Below are positions 17,604 through 24,985 of a stretch of 64,000 nucleotides of DNA, piece by piece. The stretch covers positions 1,054,001-1,118,000 of the forward strand of contig NC_005027.1 in the NCBI RefSeq assembly GCF_000196115.1, given 5' to 3'. The position numbers were made by a program, and so were the translations under genes. Position 1 is the first letter of the stretch. Each line of letters begins with the position of its first letter. The notes beneath the pieces are model-generated. The model was not told where the DNA came from. It searched no databases and saw nothing but the letters and a program-made list of their open reading frames with translations. The stretch is from Rhodopirellula baltica SH 1. GTDB lineage: Bacteria; Planctomycetota; Planctomycetia; Pirellulales; Pirellulaceae.

Positions 17604-20600
17604 TTAGGCGGCTTGCAACGATCGGTGTTGGGCAGCGTAGGTCACCCATTCAGTGACTTCTTCCAGGTCCGGAAGCTTGCCGCCCCGAGCGATTCGCTTT
17701 CCTTCCCGCGAATGTGCGATCGCGTCGACCTCGCCAAACAGTGTCACAGGATTCTGCTCGGCCAATTCCTCGGCGGATGTGACTCCGGCGGCAACCAAAA
17801 ACTGAGCGTCATGGCCTCGCATCATCGGGACGCGGCATACCAACGTGGTTTGTTGTTGCCACGCCAGCACGGTTTCCGCTTCGACTCGGCGGTGGTTGAG
17901 CTGCTCGGCAACCTTTTCAGGATTTGATTTCAGCAAATCATCGACGGTGTAAATGCCAATCTCATTCAAACGCTCAGCCATACGAGGACCGATCGAGGGA
18001 GCGTCGACAACGTCGCTGGCTCGTTCCAAGTAGAAACGCAGTTCAGTTGTTTTGCTGGAATCGCGATCGCTCGAACGTTCTTCGCGTTCACCTCGCTCGT
18101 AGCGATTGCTTCGCGATTCTCGTTCACCACGTGCTTCACGTTCGGCACGCGGTTCACGTTCACTGCGCGAGTCACGTTCGGTCCGCGAGCTTCGTTGTCC
18201 GCGGTTGGATTCGTGGTCTCGCATCGACACGACGCCTTGCGAGCGGTTGGCTCGCCCGGTGCCTGAACCGTTGCCATTGCCCGATCCATTGCCAATGCCT
18301 GAACCGTTGCCGGATCCGCTTCCGTTGCCGTAGCCGTTACCGTTCCCGGAACCATTGCCGGACGACGAACCATTTCGAGTGCGGGTGCTGGACGAGCTGC
18401 GACTCGATGTGCGAGTGCGGCTCGATCGTCCGCTCTCGCTGCTGCGGCTTCGCAGGGTGCGAGTGCGAGTTCGTTCGCCTTCGCCGCGTTTGCTTTCACG
18501 AAGCGATTGCATCTCGTTGGCCAGTTGGCGACCGCGACGGGCTGCTTCGACTTCGTATCGTTCTTGGTCAAATGCATCGTCGTCGTAGTCGTCACGAAGG
18601 TCCAAGTCATGATCGATCACGTGGCGTCCGTTGACGGAGGTGCCATTGAGCGAACGAGTGCTTCGCGAGCGGCCGTTCAACGTGCGACCGTTGACGGTGC
18701 GGGTGCGAGTTCGTACGTGAGCGGTTTGGTTGGCCGATGCAATCCAGCTGGTGATGCGGGAAAGTTCGTAGCTCGATCCGCTGAGCAGAATTCGCTGGCC
18801 GCGTTCGGTTGCCAGGAACGTTTTGACTTGGTCCAGCAAATCGCTGGGGTGAATCGCTGCCAATTGGGCTGGATCGGTGACGCCACAGCCGACCAAAACG
18901 CGAGCGTCAAAGCCACGCAGTTGTGGGACTCGGCACATCAAGCGACATTCCGATTGCCAACGGCGGATCGTGCGAGCGTCGACACCCGCCAATCCCAGAG
19001 TATCGGCCAATCGGTTGCTGTCTTGGCTCATCAAGTGAGTGATGTGCGAGATCCCGATTCGGCGGAGACGTGCCGCTGCGACACCATCGATCGAAGGTGC
19101 CGAGTCAATGGGGCTGTCAACGGTCAAGAAGAACGGTGTCTCGTTCACTTCCGATTCGCTCGTGTGCCCATTTGCGACAACACCATGTTCGGTGGTCGCG
19201 TTGGTGGCGACAGGAATCGTCGAAGTGGTTTGGTCAGCGTAGTAGTACCCGTCGCGATAAGCGGTTCCCGAAGGAGCGTGATCGGTGGCGGATGCGGGAT
19301 GACTGGGGACGAAACCATTGTGGGTGGCTCCGTTCGCGTCGGCGTGAACCGAAGCGGCCGGATAGACGGCGTGTTGCACGGGACCCGTTGTCGAACCATG
19401 GATTGCGGTTGGACCGCCCACCCATTGGTCTTCATCGAGTCCTGCCGTTTCGCGGTAAGCGGCTTCGAATTCGTGGTTGACGTCCGCGGAGGCACCATTG
19501 AACCATCGTGAACGTTCGCCGGTTCCGAGTTCGGTTTGGTTGTCCAGTCCATGAGGACCGACGTAGCGATCGTGGCGACGGCCGTTTCGCCAAACAGGTT
19601 GGTGAGCGTGGACGATTCGCGACGCGTGCAATCGGAAGGTTCGTGCACCGCTGCGGGAAAGCGACGAAGCGAGTGGCTCGTGGCTGGTCAACAGCACAAT
19701 TTGGCGGCCAGGCGATGCGTAGTCGGACAAAGCCGATGCGATTGCATCGCCGGTGACACCTTCAGCGGTCCAAGGACGGAATGCATCGTTCAAGCCGTGG
19801 AGGTCAGTTCTGCTATCGACCGCCGTGAATAGTTCGCGATGAGTTTCAAGGATCAATGGAACCGAGCGTCCGGTGCGATCCATCAATTCGCCGGCAGCCA
19901 TGCGAACGGCCATTGCTGCGATGGCACGAGTGACACCAGGCAGACTCATTTCGTCTTGGTCATCGATTCGGACGTGGACTTGGCGTCCCGCAGCGATCGA
20001 TCGAGTGTTGGTGAAGCGATGTTCAGCTTCACTTCGCTGCAACGTGTGTGGGTCCACATTGACAGCGGAAGTGGTCCAGGTCACTCGGCGATGACGTCCG
20101 CCGGACAAGCGAACCAACCAACGACTGGCCAGTTCCACCAGTGACGATTCGGCACGTGTGGCCGGACGGTATCGATTCAGTTCAGTGATCAGCTCGTCTC
20201 GACGACGAAGCAATTCAGTACGACGCGAGTTTCGGACCACTGGACGAGCAGCGGGGCGAATCGGATGCGGAACGGGGGTCAACTCCAATTCATGCTGGCG
20301 AGTTGCAAGTGCTTGCAGTTCTCGATCGATTTGACGCAGTCGATCGTCGACGGCTGCCAAGTCAAACGCCGTTTCGGGCATTCCGATTGGGTAGTCGGCA
20401 TCGACGATTGGCAGCGTTCGAAGGCTGCGGCGAACACGAGCGGATTCGTCCAGCACGCTTCGCAGTTGTGTCTCGGTCTGATGCAGTTCGCTTAAACGAG
20501 CACCACGTTCGGCCATCCAATCGGGATGGTGACCCGTGATGGTCACAAAGTCGTGCAGTTCGCTTCGTGACGCGGCGAGTTCTTCGACGATGCGTGCTCG

Positions 20601-22265
20601 ATCGCGAAGAAGTTGGTCCAGAGTGTCCGCGAGTTGACGTGTGACGTTGTCGACGTGATCGCCAACCACGTACGGCGAACGGCGAAGTTCGGTACGGATT
20701 TGACGGAGAGTCGACGCGAGCGAGCTTTGTCGGTTCCAAGCACCACGCAATGGTTCGAAGGTGACCGGATCAACTGAGCCCGCAGCAGTGGCAGCAGTTT
20801 CTCGTTCAATTCGATTCAGCAACCAATCGATTTGTTGTGTCGCCGAGTTGATTCGCAGGTCGATGTCATCGATCTGGTGCAGCGGACGATACGCGTCGCG
20901 ATAGAAATCGTCCCACGCGTGATCGACTGAGTAGTGATCAATCGCATTGATGAAATGGTCGTAGCGGCGGTTGCTGATGCCATCGACATCGACGGAATAA
21001 GCATGTTGGCGAGCGTTGGCAATCGAATCGCGAAGGCCACGGATTTCGGCCAATGTGCGACGCAGTTGAATGATCTCCGAATCAGCCAGACGCAGTTGGT
21101 CTCGCAGTTCATTTGCCGACAACTTCGCCGCGTATCGCAGGTCGGTCGTTAGGTAGCCGCTGCCGGTGTAGTGATCGCGATGAGTGGTGCCGTATGCCAG
21201 GGGATCGATGCCATAAGCGTAGGGCCGCGTCGTGGAACCGGGGGCCGAGTAGGCTTTTGCATCCAGGTCGGCGATCCACCGTTTCAAACCGGACGCACGA
21301 GCTCGCAACGAGTCGGCTTGCGTGTGTAGTTCGTGCAAACGTTGGGTGTGCTGACGATGTCGCTCCGCATGAACGCTCTCGTAGCGAGCGGCACGTGAAC
21401 GATGGGCTAAGATGACGCTGCGACGAGCGGTCAACGAATCGCGAAGCCGCACACATTCCCCGCGTTGACGATGGATGTCAGCAAGTTCGCGTTGGATTTG
21501 CTCGGCACGTAAGTTGGCTTCGTTCCACTGGGAGCTTTCGTCCCATGTGCTTCCGTACCGGTCGGATGCTTCTAAGTCTTGGCTTGGCAACGCGGCTAGC
21601 TGAGCTTCAACGTCGGCCAATTCCGAACGCAGGGCTCGGCGGCGTCGGTCGTCCGATTCGGTGAATGAATGAACGGATTCGCCCGACTGAACCGAATTGC
21701 TGTAGGCGTGGTGATTGTGCGTGTAACGAGCCGTTTCGGATTCGTACGGCAGGGCGGCGAATCCTTCGCGATCAAGTCCCGATTGAATGCATGCGGCGAC
21801 CACGCGGGAAACGCTGGTGACAGTCGTGTCGACCATCACACCATCCACGATTGATTCAGGCATTTGCACGCTGCGGAGAGCACGTGCCGCCATGGTTGTG
21901 CTGTTTTTGGTCGGGACAACATCGTCTTGGTTGCCGAACCATCCGTCGTGATAGCCTTCCCATGCGGCGGTCGTTTCGCTGCGTGGTTCGAATTCCACGG
22001 TGCGGCGGCCATTGGAAGTGCCGTCTGCTTCGCGGCGGCAGTGAACCCAGCCATTGTTGTCGACCCAAACAACTCGTCCGGTCGAACCACTGAGCATTCC
22101 ATTGGGGTATTGTCGCGAAACGAGTGAGTCGCGAATGAAGCGGCTGATCGCGGTTTTGCCGGATCCGATCGGGCCGAGCACCACATTCAAGTGATGAGAC
22201 AGCGGTCCAAGTTCCACCCGGTTTAACGGGCCATGATTGTCGATTTCGATTCGATCCAACAACAT
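17604..22265 (-). CDS. Giant YhaN/SMC-like ATPase with coiled coil, GN-repeat linker and two DUF4332 domains
   Basis: This 1553-aa protein opens like a RecF/YhaN/SMC ATPase: MLLDRIEIDNHGPLNRVEL, then Walker A GPIGSGKT (31-38). Residues ~200-680 are Arg/Gln-rich helical coiled coil. The C-terminal half of the head follows: WLVRLSGGRHRRVTW (~718), a signature-like SLPGVTRAIAAMAVRMA, a Walker B position reading VPLILETHREL (~805) where relatives have L-D-D, and IVLLTSHEPL (~858). Then come a disordered region, a DUF4332 helix-hairpin-helix module (~1045-1180), a Gly/Asn/Ser tract (~1262-1341), an Arg/Ser/Glu tract and a second DUF4332 (~1418-1548). A strong Shine-Dalgarno (ggaaggag, 9 nt before ATG 22265) supports the start. 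It is likely a DNA- or chromosome-organising ATPase; partner and substrate are unknown. Confidence 0.8.
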   Translation of the reverse strand: MLLDRIEIDNHGPLNRVELGPLSHHLNVVLGPIGSGKTAISRFIRDSLVSRQYPNGMLSGSTGRVVWVDNNGWVHCRREADGTSNGRRTVEFEPRSETTAAWEGYHDGWFGNQDDVVPTKNSTTMAARALRSVQMPESIVDGVMVDTTVTSVSRVVAACIQSGLDREGFAALPYESETARYTHNHHAYSNSVQSGESVHSFTESDDRRRRALRSELADVEAQLAALPSQDLEASDRYGSTWDESSQWNEANLRAEQIQRELADIHRQRGECVRLRDSLTARRSVILAHRSRAARYESVHAERHRQHTQRLHELHTQADSLRARASGLKRWIADLDAKAYSAPGSTTRPYAYGIDPLAYGTTHRDHYTGSGYLTTDLRYAAKLSANELRDQLRLADSEIIQLRRTLAEIRGLRDSIANARQHAYSVDVDGISNRRYDHFINAIDHYSVDHAWDDFYRDAYRPLHQIDDIDLRINSATQQIDWLLNRIERETAATAAGSVDPVTFEPLRGAWNRQSSLASTLRQIRTELRRSPYVVGDHVDNVTRQLADTLDQLLRDRARIVEELAASRSELHDFVTITGHHPDWMAERGARLSELHQTETQLRSVLDESARVRRSLRTLPIVDADYPIGMPETAFDLAAVDDRLRQIDRELQALATRQHELELTPVPHPIRPAARPVVRNSRRTELLRRRDELITELNRYRPATRAESSLVELASRWLVRLSGGRHRRVTWTTSAVNVDPHTLQRSEAEHRFTNTRSIAAGRQVHVRIDDQDEMSLPGVTRAIAAMAVRMAAGELMDRTGRSVPLILETHRELFTAVDSRTDLHGLNDAFRPWTAEGVTGDAIASALSDYASPGRQIVLLTSHEPLASSLSRSGARTFRLHASRIVHAHQPVWRNGRRHDRYVGPHGLDNQTELGTGERSRWFNGASADVNHEFEAAYRETAGLDEDQWVGGPTAIHGSTTGPVQHAVYPAASVHADANGATHNGFVPSHPASATDHAPSGTAYRDGYYYADQTTSTIPVATNATTEHGVVANGHTSESEVNETPFFLTVDSPIDSAPSIDGVAAARLRRIGISHITHLMSQDSNRLADTLGLAGVDARTIRRWQSECRLMCRVPQLRGFDARVLVGCGVTDPAQLAAIHPSDLLDQVKTFLATERGQRILLSGSSYELSRITSWIASANQTAHVRTRTRTVNGRTLNGRSRSTRSLNGTSVNGRHVIDHDLDLRDDYDDDAFDQERYEVEAARRGRQLANEMQSLRESKRGEGERTRTRTLRSRSSESGRSSRTRTSSRSSSSTRTRNGSSSGNGSGNGNGYGNGSGSGNGSGIGNGSGNGNGSGTGRANRSQGVVSMRDHESNRGQRSSRTERDSRSEREPRAEREARGERESRSNRYERGEREERSSDRDSSKTTELRFYLERASDVVDAPSIGPRMAERLNEIGIYTVDDLLKSNPEKVAEQLNHRRVEAETVLAWQQQTTLVCRVPMMRGHDAQFLVAAGVTSAEELAEQNPVTLFGEVDAIAHSREGKRIARGGKLPDLEEVTEWVTYAAQHRSLQAA

Positions 22266-22543
22266 CGCAAAACGCTCCTTCCGTGGCTGCGCGTGATCAC
22301 GCCCTGTGAGGGTCCAAGGTCCTTGGCAAAGAAAAGAGGGCCATCCTGCCCACTTGCGGGAACCTTTGCCGGTTTCCTTTGTTCACCACTGGAATGGGTG
22401 AACACGCGGAGACTTTAGTCGAATCGGCAAATTCGTGGAAAGGCCGATTTCGTGAAACTGCGACAAGACCAAAAAATCATTTTGTGGTCAGTCGAGCGAA
22501 CGCGGCGTTCTTTCCCGGGAGCGTTCCGGGAGCGCGGCGAGGG
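22266..22543. other. Intergenic region, 278 bp
   Basis: This is the upstream region of the giant ATPase gene. It contains a short stem gttcacc/ggtgaac at 22381-22403 and a ccaaggtccttgg palindrome near 22314. No promoter could be assigned with confidence. Confidence 0.4.
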
Positions 22544-23458
22544 TCAGGCAGCACGCCGCTGGCGACGCTTCTGCTTCTTCTTTGACGCCTTTTTTCCGGC
22601 GTTTTGGCGTGTCAGGCGAATGGCTTGAGGAACCCACAACTCGCTCTGGATCCGTCCGCCCAAGTTCATCCAATTGTCAAAATGGCCGATTTGCTCGGAC
22701 GACCACGCTGCAATTTGATGGTGGTAGAAAATTCCGTGTTCTTGCAATTCGGTTTGCTGAACCGATCTGATTCCCCAGATTTGAGTCAGATCGTCGGGTG
22801 ATTTTGGACGCGACATATATAGCAGTCCAAGTTCGTCGTGTTGCCGAATTGGAATACCGTTTTCATCTCGGGTTTCGCCGTGCGATTCTGGCGGCGTGGG
22901 ATGGACGAGTGCAATCGTGGTCGGCACGGAGGATCCATTTGCCGATTTCGATGCCGTCGCCAAATCGACCGTCGCCGATTCGAACGGTGTGGAGTTGTCG
23001 TTGGCGGGCAACTTTGACGAGTCGTTGGCGTGCTGCGTTGGGTAAGCGTTCGGTTTGACCGAATCGATTTGGTTGTGAACTTCCAGATGCTCTGCCAATT
23101 CGTTTTCGAGCGTTTCGATTCGCATGCGCAGCGCGGCGACTTCCAAATGCAGGTTTTGGGACTCGTTCGTGATCGAAGCGGAGACCTGGATGAACCTGGC
23201 TAGTTCGGAACGAAGCAAACGAATCTCTTCTGTGTCCGCGTTTGTCTTGCGTGAATCATTGTTGGCCAATTGGTTTCGGCTTGATAGACGCTTGGCTTGT
23301 CTCGTCGCTCGCAGTTCCCGCAGGCGTTCTTCGCGAGCTTTGCCTTTGCTGGATAGCACCCCATAGAGAACGACGAGTCCCAAGCACGAGTATCCAGCGG
23401 CCAATCCCAGCACCACGAGGTACATCGGATCGGCAGTTGCGGATTCGATCGTGGGCAT
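22544..23458 (-). CDS. Membrane-anchored coiled-coil protein with C-terminal helix-hairpin-helix-like module
   Basis: A 304-aa protein with one N-terminal transmembrane helix (YLVVLGLAAGYSCLGLVVLY, about residues 13-32) and a basic stretch (KAREERLRELRATRQAKR). A coiled coil follows at about 75-125 (IRLLRSELARF to RIETLENELAEHL), then a disordered linker. The C-terminal module is DDLTQIWGIRSVQQTELQEH with GIFYHHQIAAWS and ends in a very basic tail. The module has the G-I-x-x-x-x-x-x-L-x-x-x-G-I pattern of the HhH/DUF4332-type domains also found in the giant ATPase immediately downstream on the same strand. A membrane tether for that ATPase is a reasonable inference. ATG 23458 is preferred to an adjacent GTG. 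Confidence 0.65.
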   Translation of the reverse strand: MPTIESATADPMYLVVLGLAAGYSCLGLVVLYGVLSSKGKAREERLRELRATRQAKRLSSRNQLANNDSRKTNADTEEIRLLRSELARFIQVSASITNESQNLHLEVAALRMRIETLENELAEHLEVHNQIDSVKPNAYPTQHANDSSKLPANDNSTPFESATVDLATASKSANGSSVPTTIALVHPTPPESHGETRDENGIPIRQHDELGLLYMSRPKSPDDLTQIWGIRSVQQTELQEHGIFYHHQIAAWSSEQIGHFDNWMNLGGRIQSELWVPQAIRLTRQNAGKKASKKKQKRRQRRAA

Positions 23459-24049
23459 CACAGGACAATCCTCGGGGACGCAGGTGGGGCAGGGGTTCCG
23501 GTCGACGGCGTCGCAAAGTTCAGCTCAACCGGAACGCGAAGCTTGTTTCGTCCGGGCGGATCGTTCGGGACGAACTCCGCATCACAGGCTTCGTTCTTCT
23601 TTTTTCGGAAGATTCGGAACAGCGCGTTGAATCTTTCTCTTGTTTTCGCACCTTTGGCTGAAGAAGGCTGCTTTGTCGTCGCTCGTGATGTCGGTTGCCG
23701 GGGAGGTTTGTTTCCTTGTTTCGAAGTGTTTCACATGCTCATAGGTTCGAGTGGATTGCTCGTGTTGATACAGAACGTCCGTTGCGTTTGGTGGTGTTTG
23801 TTTGCTAACCCTCAGACCGTTGAGGAGATCCTCGACCGGTTTCATGTCGAAACCGCCCACCCAGACACCCCGCCCTGCTACACCCAGAACGCTCGTCCGA
23901 TGTTTCGGAATCGGCTGCCTATACGATTCGCCACCCCGCACACCGATCACCGCTGCGCCCAAAAAAGGTGTCAGGTACCTTTTTTGCGAACGACCGAAGA
24001 ACTCAACGCGATTCAACCTGGGCGAAAGCCTTCGGCTCGTCCATTGAAG
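23459..24049. other. Intergenic region, 591 bp
   Basis: This is the divergent region between the coiled-coil gene and the lipoprotein gene. An open frame crosses it into the lipoprotein gene, but it has no protein-like pattern before the lipoprotein signal at 24050. The one clear element is the palindrome at 23960-23986. Confidence 0.5.
23960..23986. repeat. Symmetric A/T-flanked hairpin (caaaaaaggt / accttttttg)
   Basis: A perfect 10-bp stem, caaaaaaggt (23960-23969) and accttttttg (23977-23986), has loop gtcaggt. The run of six A on one side and six T on the other makes it look like a bidirectional terminator. From memory the aaaggtgtcaggtacctttt core recurs widely in planctomycete and other genomes near REP-associated transposases; this is not checked here, and no transposase is nearby. 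Confidence 0.65.
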
Positions 24050-24985
24050 ATGCTGATTGGCCTCGGGGTGATGTTGGCGTTGTTCGCAGGATGTGGCACG
24101 ACCAAAGAGCATCAAGCAACGGAGCAGTTGTTGTTGTCGGATGCTGTTGACCGGAGCGTTTCAACCATCGACTTTCGGCCATTGTCCGGTGAAAAGGTTT
24201 ATCTCGACACGAGTTACCTTCGGTCGGTGAAAGCAACCACGTTCGTGAATGCGGACTATGTCACCAGTGCGCTGCGTCAGCAGGTCATGGCGGCCGGTTG
24301 TTATCTGCAAGATTCCAGTGCGGAAGCGGATATCATCATCGAAGCCCGGATCGGAACGTTGGGGTATGACGATCACCGAGTCACGCTTGGTGTTCCGGAG
24401 AACAGCGCGATCAACTCGACGGTGTCGTTGTTTCCGGGGTCGCCCAATGTGCCTCAGATTCCCGAAATCGCGGTGGCACGCCGTGATGCTCGTGAAGGTG
24501 CGGCCAAGGTTGCAGCGTTTGCTTACGACCGAGAAACTCGCGAAGCGGTTTGGCAATCCGGAATCAGCCAGTCTCGATCCACCGCCCGCGATACATGGGT
24601 GATGGGGGTCGGGCCATTCCAAGGTGGATCGATCCGGGATGAAACGCGGTTGGCCGGGAGCAAACTTTTGCGATTCGGACGCCGTTCAACGGGCTCTCCG
24701 CCAAAAGTTTTTAGTCGTCCACCAGTTGACTACACCGCAGAGACCCGATTCGACGGTGGGTACCCAGTTCTCCGCGATGAAAACCAAAGCATGATCGGTG
24801 GCGGGTTGTTGCCCGGCGAGCCTTTACCGAGCGTTATGGCAACGGAAATGCTTGCGAAGGATGACGCTGGTGATAGCACCGATGTATCGGAAGTCGAGAA
24901 CGAAGCGTCAGATGAACCGACATCAAAGAAGGCACAGCCGGCCGAGAAGATTGCCGCGCCGCCGCTGAAGAAGAAGCTGCGCTGA
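24050..24985 (+). CDS. Lipoprotein, DUF6655-like / unknown envelope protein
   Basis: A 311-aa lipoprotein. MLIGLGVMLALFAGCGTTKE is a textbook lipobox (LFAG|C), so it would be lipid-anchored at Cys15 in an envelope membrane. The mature part has an alpha/beta region with KVYLDTSYLRSV, a helix with VTSALRQQVMAAGC, and ADIIIEARIGTLGYDDHRVTLGVP. It then has IPEIAVARRDAREGAAKVAA and AYDRETREAVWQSGISQSRS. This resembles the small family of lipoproteins with a CsgG/TolB-like fold that compute a ligand-binding beta-sheet, annotated as hypothetical or DUF6655; the DUF number is from memory. The C-terminus is acidic, then Lys-rich. The start at 24050 is set by the lipobox. It is transcribed alone. Confidence 0.65.
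   Translation: MLIGLGVMLALFAGCGTTKEHQATEQLLLSDAVDRSVSTIDFRPLSGEKVYLDTSYLRSVKATTFVNADYVTSALRQQVMAAGCYLQDSSAEADIIIEARIGTLGYDDHRVTLGVPENSAINSTVSLFPGSPNVPQIPEIAVARRDAREGAAKVAAFAYDRETREAVWQSGISQSRSTARDTWVMGVGPFQGGSIRDETRLAGSKLLRFGRRSTGSPPKVFSRPPVDYTAETRFDGGYPVLRDENQSMIGGGLLPGEPLPSVMATEMLAKDDAGDSTDVSEVENEASDEPTSKKAQPAEKIAAPPLKKKLR

Follow-up and report, generated by a model that had tools for sequence, protein, structure and literature searches.

A 64,000-nucleotide (nt) stretch of Rhodopirellula baltica SH 1 DNA (contig NC_005027.1, positions 1,054,001 to 1,118,000; hereafter the window) contains, as a single open reading frame (ORF) in the ORF listing of the window (17604-22265, reverse strand), the gene for a protein of 1553 amino acids (aa) that joins a Rad50/YhaN-like ATPase head and a long coiled coil to two C-terminal DUF4332 modules of the helix-hairpin-helix (HhH) type. 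The anatomy of this protein, its kinship with YhaN, the gene order at related loci and the loss of catalytic motifs were computed directly. The explanation favoured here, to which about an even chance is given, is that the protein may represent a diverged YhaO-YhaN (Mre11-Rad50-like) complex that was turned into a non-nucleolytic DNA-binding scaffold and reduced in Rhodopirellula to one protein. An earlier interpretation made from the letters of the window (the sequence-only reading) had recognized a YhaN/SMC-like head carrying HhH-type DUF4332, unlike SMC-ScpAB or MukBEF, in a combination thought to be undescribed, and had coupled it to a small coiled-coil protein encoded upstream in a putative membrane-linked complex. 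The first part holds, since the architecture is conserved among planctomycetes and no description of the combination was found in the open-licence PMC literature searched; the two-protein complex is unsupported, as the small protein has no DUF4332 and the adjacency of the two genes is not conserved.

The ATPase head has a Rad50-type fold and altered hydrolysis motifs

The head was modeled with AlphaFold2 (residues 1-905, 47 sequences), giving a mean predicted local distance difference test (pLDDT) score of 73.6 and a predicted template modeling score of 0.49. The best structural matches of this model are Rad50 heads (Z 20.9, root-mean-square deviation 3.2, 259 aligned residues), with SMC, cohesin and Lamassu LmuACB chains ranking close behind; SMC and MukB-type heads, as found in SMC-ScpAB and MukBEF, are both among the matches. 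Foldseek likewise places Rad50 first (E 7.3e-11) and returns a Lamassu LmuACB chain at E 3.8e-6. The predicted structure supports a Rad50/SMC-type head, in keeping with the YhaN/SMC-like ATPase of the sequence-only reading. In Pfam the head yields a weak N-terminal AAA_23 match alone (E 0.0038, below cut-off). The YhaN model AAA_27 (PF13514) is not listed for the window protein and matches one of the 24 members of a homologue alignment (A1); it does match relatives from a taxonomic family of the same class and another order (f3 below; loci L218, L213 and L211).

The Walker A motif GPIGSGKT was correctly located near the N-terminus (residues 31-38), and its Lys is retained in 44 of 47 aligned rows. 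The further claim of motifs of an ATP-binding cassette (ABC) head near residues 718-858 did not survive alignment in its details. The segment LSGGR (720-724) is ruled out as the ABC signature: its place reads LTCDE or LTDGK in the two YhaN proteins of R. baltica and LTNGK-like in f3 relatives, and the true signatures of the YhaN and f3 proteins (LSRGT, LSSGT, MSTGT) come after this segment, so LSGGR is a look-alike. The actual signature position reads SLPGVTRA (774-781) and the Walker B region PLILET (803-808), with E807-T808 at the acidic pair; neither has the form seen in YhaN/Rad50 ATPases.

This alteration extends well beyond R. baltica. The position of the Walker B Asp is occupied by Glu in 27 and by Asp in 20 of the 47 aligned rows (near-identical rows were removed from this alignment, and L111, L153 and L105, whose first codon is GTG, are omitted from alignment A2). 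A tree of the quick kind, which has several long branches, was built from 76 of 79 proteins, three being omitted because their head match was short or missing. It groups 30 Walker-B-Glu rows as a clade (SH-aLRT 94), with the D-D protein L114 next to it as sister; throughout this clade both acidic positions are altered, to E-T or to E-V/L/I/S/A. A further Walker-B-Glu row, L154, shares a very long branch with L155. In four of the 76 rows (L148, L150, L152 and L160, three of them titled Pirellula) it is the P-loop Lys that is replaced, by Ser.

The long coiled coil that had been proposed lies between the two halves of the head and is seen as helices in the AlphaFold2 model (residues 169-699). 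By motif scan this region contains a single Cys and has neither a CxxC zinc hook nor a CxCxxH motif. The latter is nonetheless a feature of the wider protein family, being present in 20 of 79 proteins versus a mean of 0.26 after residue shuffling, and in 18 of the 20 carriers it sits 109-126 residues before the start of the C-terminal-head profile. Carriers include L215, L216, L218, L122 and L140. No member of the Glu-type Walker B clade, which includes Rhodopirellula, has the motif; L110 and L115 of that clade retain CQDH.

Tandem DUF4332 modules are joined by a repeat-encoded linker

Pfam DUF4332 (PF14229) matches two stretches of the window protein (E 1.5e-46, 157.9 bits versus a cut-off of 23.2), and Cdd1 and HHH_5 are also returned; each of the three models matches all 24 members of alignment A1. 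The two modules named in the sequence-only reading were therefore found, at about residues 1043-1183 and 1410-1553. A model of the C-terminal 518 residues, made with 61 sequences (alignment A3, 61 of 65 possible rows; L112, L158, L119 and L125 are absent), predicts that both fold confidently as helical blocks (pLDDT 91-98), and the linker between them is mostly below pLDDT 50, with one predicted helix. The repeat character of this linker (~1186-1405) is likewise evident: it contains 44 R, 40 S, 31 G and 17 N in 220 residues, and imperfect 18-bp DNA repeats at window positions 18112-18350 encode its GN/SG and RER/RS stretches. It is unconserved, and the modules directly abut in L120 and L129.

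At the hairpin, module 2 differs from module 1. The hairpin glycine of module 2 (G1426; G391 of A3) is invariant across the 61 rows and the matching place in module 1 is mostly Asp; from this comparison of residues, module 2 appears the likelier DNA binder. Over its first ~65 residues, module 1 looks like the N-terminal HhH-type domains found in NusA and in RAD51-family proteins, with Z reaching 9.5. A PDB sequence search with the full ATPase gave low-complexity matches to the linker, together with HhH matches to DNA polymerase IV/Dbh.

Distribution of the ATPase among planctomycetes

A single-sequence search with ATPase residues 1-900 found matches in 31 of 119 genomes of the taxonomic family to which R. 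baltica belongs, and an ORF of 892-1640 aa was present at 26 of the 27 loci fetched from that search. DUF4332 itself was matched in 98 of these 119 genomes (at least 90% completeness having been asked for), and in at least 86 it lies in a frame of at least 800 aa, a class defined by length and not by a head match. Farther out it was matched in 77 of 198 genomes of the class and in 52 of 294 of the phylum, many of the frames outside the class being short; L168-L188, nearly all from other classes of the phylum, have DUF4332 in frames of 141-290 aa with very strong matches. A set of 80 loci was kept out of 112 relatives from a scan of genome contigs, and all of these are titled planctomycetes except L128, titled "bacterium". 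The ATPase with DUF4332 tails is a planctomycete family. Look-alike N-termini with DUF4332 were also read by eye at L223-L226.

A conserved operon partner was sought by clustering the neighboring ORFs of 65 loci, and was rejected: no neighbor is shared by more than 10 of the 65, and the largest shared gene, found in 10, is mostly a divergent gene just upstream.

Relatives in another order are paired with a predicted pseudonuclease

A different arrangement is found in f3, for which 22 loci were sampled out of 25 counted f3 frames of at least 930 aa. The f3 ATPases have the same architecture, with one or two DUF4332 modules, and YhaN-type motifs, the Walker A pattern being present at 22 of 22 loci and the Walker B pattern at 20 (no pattern match in L219 and L246). 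At 20 of the 22 an MRE11/YhaO-like gene lies directly upstream on the same strand, separated by -4 to 166 nt, and such a partner gene also occurs at L162, a metagenome-assembled genome (MAG) titled Planctomycetaceae in the 80-locus set. The seven nuclease ligands were compared in these 21 proteins by profile fit, with the intact R. baltica YhaO (7 of 7 kept) as yardstick. The Asp and His of motif I are each kept in two proteins and the motif-II Asp in two; in motif III the Asn is kept in none and the His in nine; the two motif-V His are kept in five and one. No partner retains more than three of the seven ligands, and these MRE11/YhaO-like proteins are accordingly predicted from sequence to be pseudonucleases.

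In the 80-locus set, 63 of 64 head-bearing loci (68 less L142, L147, L157 and L166, which have no recognised ATPase head) showed no MRE11/YhaO-like partner beside the ATPase, six with less than 500 nt upstream. In f95, a taxonomic family within the order of R. baltica, no partner gene was found at 10 of 10 loci and no GK[ST] was found in the first 300 residues of eight of the 10 proteins; the Walker B region of seven has D-E or D-Q by eye, although the automated pattern matched none. The DUF4332 pair is retained where the P-loop is lost or Walker B is altered.

No nuclease gene lies beside the window ATPase. Elsewhere, R. baltica has two YhaO-YhaN operons, at C1:5782000-5792000 (L209 2821-7889) and C1:529000-537000 (L210 1326-6706). 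The nuclease of the first keeps all seven checked ligands; that of the second has lost GNHD, which reads GIAD, and the motifs of its ATPase are intact. A third YhaO-like gene, as a partner in trans, was considered and set aside, the genome holding only the two operonic ones at E <= 0.1; the next match (E 0.12) has an internal stop.

The small upstream protein is not a consistent partner

The gene pair of the sequence-only reading exists as claimed: both ORFs lie on the same strand at the positions given, the small-protein ORF (304/305 aa) being 5' of the ATPase gene, from 22544 to 23458 if read from ATG or to 23461 from GTG, across a gap of 278 nt. Its single membrane segment is also borne out, residues 14-33 being the one hydrophobic stretch (Kyte-Doolittle 2.16; the best window starting past residue 45 reaches 0.63). 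The related DUF4332 module is not: the profile search found no DUF4332 in the small protein at Pfam E <= 1, and hhalign against the DUF4332 alignment gave a probability of 0.2%, over a different stretch. The C-terminus instead matches the tails of the NCBIfam NuoE, PhaH and L21 models (best E 3.9e-16, every match falling well short of the cut-off of its model), which we take to be HhH-type.

Nor is the adjacency conserved. The C-terminal part of the small protein was compared with the ORFs of the 80-locus set and of 27 whole-genome loci, three of them of the same genus (14 of 26 whole-genome ATPases are also in the 80-locus set, so the loci are not all independent), and one match was obtained at E <= 0.01, in R. 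europaea 6C. There the gene again precedes the ATPase, at a spacing about as in R. baltica, and the ATPase is 93% identical to the window protein in the best segment. At E <= 0.001 the small protein was not matched in three same-genus genomes; some match to it, mostly to its C-terminal part, came from 15 of the 119 family genomes. Because R. baltica and R. europaea were the only examined loci with the two genes side by side, the small protein is not a consistent partner of the ATPase. According to PMC3906078, functionally related genes of R. baltica are often unclustered, so that the missing adjacency weakens, and does not exclude, a link between the two proteins.

Comparison with known systems

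Closest to the window ATPase is YhaN of the Mre11-Rad50-like YhaN/YhaO pair, which is of the SbcE type: the two share a split Rad50-type head, a long coil and a similar N-terminus (YhaN2: MKIKDIQIDGFG), and most f3 loci share the gene order of a nuclease-like gene followed by the ATPase. The family of the window ATPase differs in its DUF4332 modules, the f3 partner in having lost most metal ligands, and the Rhodopirellula clade in its decayed Walker B and signature and in that no partner gene was found. With Rad50/SbcC of the MRE11-RAD50 and SbcCD systems the head fold is common (Z 20.9), but the window ATPase has no CxxC hook, no adjoining MRE11 and extra HhH-type tails, and some of its relatives have CxCxxH. 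SMC-ScpAB and MukBEF likewise share an ABC-type split head and coiled coil, but no SMC hinge model is among the Pfam hits of the window ATPase (E <= 1) and it has no conserved neighbor; the genome encodes a separate canonical SMC, and an R. baltica SMC gene is named in PMC2754498. Lamassu LmuB gives a weak profile match (E 1.5e-7), and an LmuACB chain a fold match (Z 18.6), but the window ATPase is set apart by its DUF4332 tails and by being common in the taxonomic family of R. baltica. Two other R. baltica proteins contain the DUF4332 module without an ATPase, one of 246 aa and one of 533 aa with a Zn_dep_PLPC-like domain (L087 7817-9418).

Both the Rad50/YhaN-like fold and DUF4332 are already known. 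For the fusion, the pseudonuclease partner and the lineage-specific decay, no description was found in the open-licence PMC papers searched; one of those papers names DUF4332, and only as a domain in the legend of an operon figure.

Interpretation and alternatives

In the favored explanation the window protein would be a diverged paralogue of YhaN, one half of an Mre11-Rad50-like complex, and would have gained two C-terminal HhH-type DUF4332 modules. The ancestral complex would first have lost its nuclease activity to become a DNA-binding clamp or tether; in the order of R. baltica the dead partner would then have been lost, and the ATPase would have changed in differing ways with the tandem tails retained. 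With Walker A kept, the Rhodopirellula protein may still bind ATP, hydrolysis being slow or nil, and its ATP-bound, non-cycling heads and coil could set the spacing of a dimeric scaffold on which tethered, flexible HhH modules hold DNA, bridging or marking structures and not cutting or extruding loops. The order of these events, DNA binding, the loss of hydrolysis and the tethering role are what we infer. The ATPase may also have a chromosome-organizing role, if one allows for a head with decayed-looking hydrolysis motifs. Planctomycete nucleoids are unusually condensed, and the phylum is known for odd nucleoids. A fuller version, in which an Mre11-Rad50-derived planctomycete complex pairs a conserved pseudonuclease with an HhH-tailed Rad50-like protein, and in the order of R. 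baltica persists as a single protein with an ATPase broken repeatedly and in different ways and a structural, DNA-tethering role in the condensed nucleoid, is offered as a tentative and rather doubtful extension.

Several points weigh against this explanation. The window protein may hydrolyse ATP slowly, as it has an unbroken Walker A and its E807 might be able to co-ordinate magnesium; and since the f3 proteins keep Walker A (22/22) and Walker B (20/22), the ancestral role probably needed ATP turnover. Divergence among the f3-type partners is high (identity to the first row is 17-29%), such that single ligand positions may be misplaced, and of the ten f3 partners taken later, four (L240, L241, L245 and L247) reach no more than 33-74 bits. 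At an open fork of the tree, five f3 proteins (L212, L213, L217, L220 and L222) come out close to R. baltica YhaN2, so there may have been more than one addition of DUF4332. DNA binding by DUF4332 is something we infer from HhH kinship; the structural matches of the module are modest (Z <= 9.5 over ~62 residues) and lie under the level at which the tool advises caution for helical domains. A Foldseek search with the C-terminal model gave none at E <= 0.001, the top rows being mostly Y-family polymerases. Action in trans by partners or nucleases encoded at other loci is also conceivable, related R. baltica genes being often unclustered in the account of PMC3906078.

One alternative is an active, ATP-driven SMC/Rad50-like machine that works on DNA in chromosome organization or repair, its atypical Walker B and signature being functional. 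The retained Walker A Lys (44 of 47 rows), the overall Rad50 fold and the canonical motifs of the f3 relatives are consistent with such a machine; because all 30 rows of the clade have lost the usual residues at the two acidic positions of Walker B, the signature is changed too, no neighbor is conserved, and a canonical SMC and two YhaO-YhaN operons are encoded elsewhere in the genome, it is considered unlikely. A component of anti-phage defence, Lamassu-like or another ABC-ATPase with an effector, would account for the LmuB profile match (E 1.5e-7) and for the LmuACB chains among the fold matches, but the best LmuB stretch (383-660) is mostly coil, the adjoining genes of the window, which include a fatty acid desaturase and DUF6655 (by Pfam), are not known defence parts, and a long DUF4332 frame is present in at least 86 of 119 family genomes. 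Defence genes are usually patchier than this in their distribution, and a defence role is regarded as very improbable. The least probable explanation is that the ATPase and the upstream coiled-coil protein, with related HhH modules, form a membrane-linked complex: the shared strand, the 278-nt gap that is about the same in R. europaea 6C and the HhH-type modules of both proteins would fit it, but those modules are of different families, the small protein has no DUF4332, and it is near the ATPase only in R. europaea among the 80 and 27 (overlapping) loci, three same-genus genomes giving no match to it at E <= 0.001.

If the scaffold explanation is true, an Mre11-Rad50-type machine would have lost both of its enzymatic activities stepwise and kept its DNA-binding-type tails. 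The lineages would then form a series (an ATPase with intact motifs beside a motif-poor nuclease; an ATPase lacking both nuclease and P-loop; an ATPase lacking the nuclease and altered in Walker B) that could serve as natural mutants for asking what the architecture does without catalysis, and they would offer a testable role for DUF4332.

Feature coordinates and neighboring genes

Features of the ATPase and of the gene upstream of it, in window positions, with the evidence for each
Feature	Window positions	Strand	Evidence
Rad50/YhaN-like ATPase with tandem DUF4332, 1553 aa	17604..22265	-	ORF, Pfam, AlphaFold2 model, Rad50-head fold match, same-architecture homologues
ATPase head, N-terminal half, residues 1-168	21762..22265	-	profile boundaries; AAA_23 E 0.0038, below cut-off
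Walker A GPIGSGKT, residues 31-38	22152..22175	-	K37 kept in 44/47 aligned rows
Coiled-coil region, residues 169-699	20169..21761	-	helices in AlphaFold2 model; motif scan
ATPase head, C-terminal half, residues 700-890	19596..20168	-	profile boundaries; most fold alignments stop at ~885
LSGGR look-alike, residues 720-724	20094..20108	-	comparison with YhaN2 and f3 relatives
ABC-signature position, SLPGVTRA, residues 774-781, decayed	19923..19946	-	alignments
Walker B region PLILETHREL, residues 803-812; E807-T808 replaces D-D/E	19830..19859	-	alignments, tree
DUF4332 module 1, residues 1043-1183	18717..19139	-	Pfam, profile, AlphaFold2 blocks pLDDT 93-98
R/S/G/N-rich linker, residues 1186-1405, probably disordered	18051..18710	-	composition, pLDDT, 18-bp repeats
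DUF4332 module 2, residues 1410-1553, hairpin G1426	17607..18038	-	Pfam, alignment A3, AlphaFold2 blocks pLDDT 91-98
Gene upstream, with one hydrophobic segment, a probable coiled coil and an HhH-type module at the C-terminus; probably outside the system	22544..23458	-	ORF, hydropathy, NCBIfam; next to the ATPase in R. baltica and R. europaea only, of the loci examined
Small-protein C-terminal module (residues 215-290), distinct from DUF4332	22592..22819	-	partial NCBIfam matches

The DUF6655 gene (4.6e-77) lies at 23543-24985 on the forward strand, divergent from the small coiled-coil gene. At L139 (2954-6446; a MAG) the ATPase head and the C-terminal part are encoded in two overlapping ORFs.

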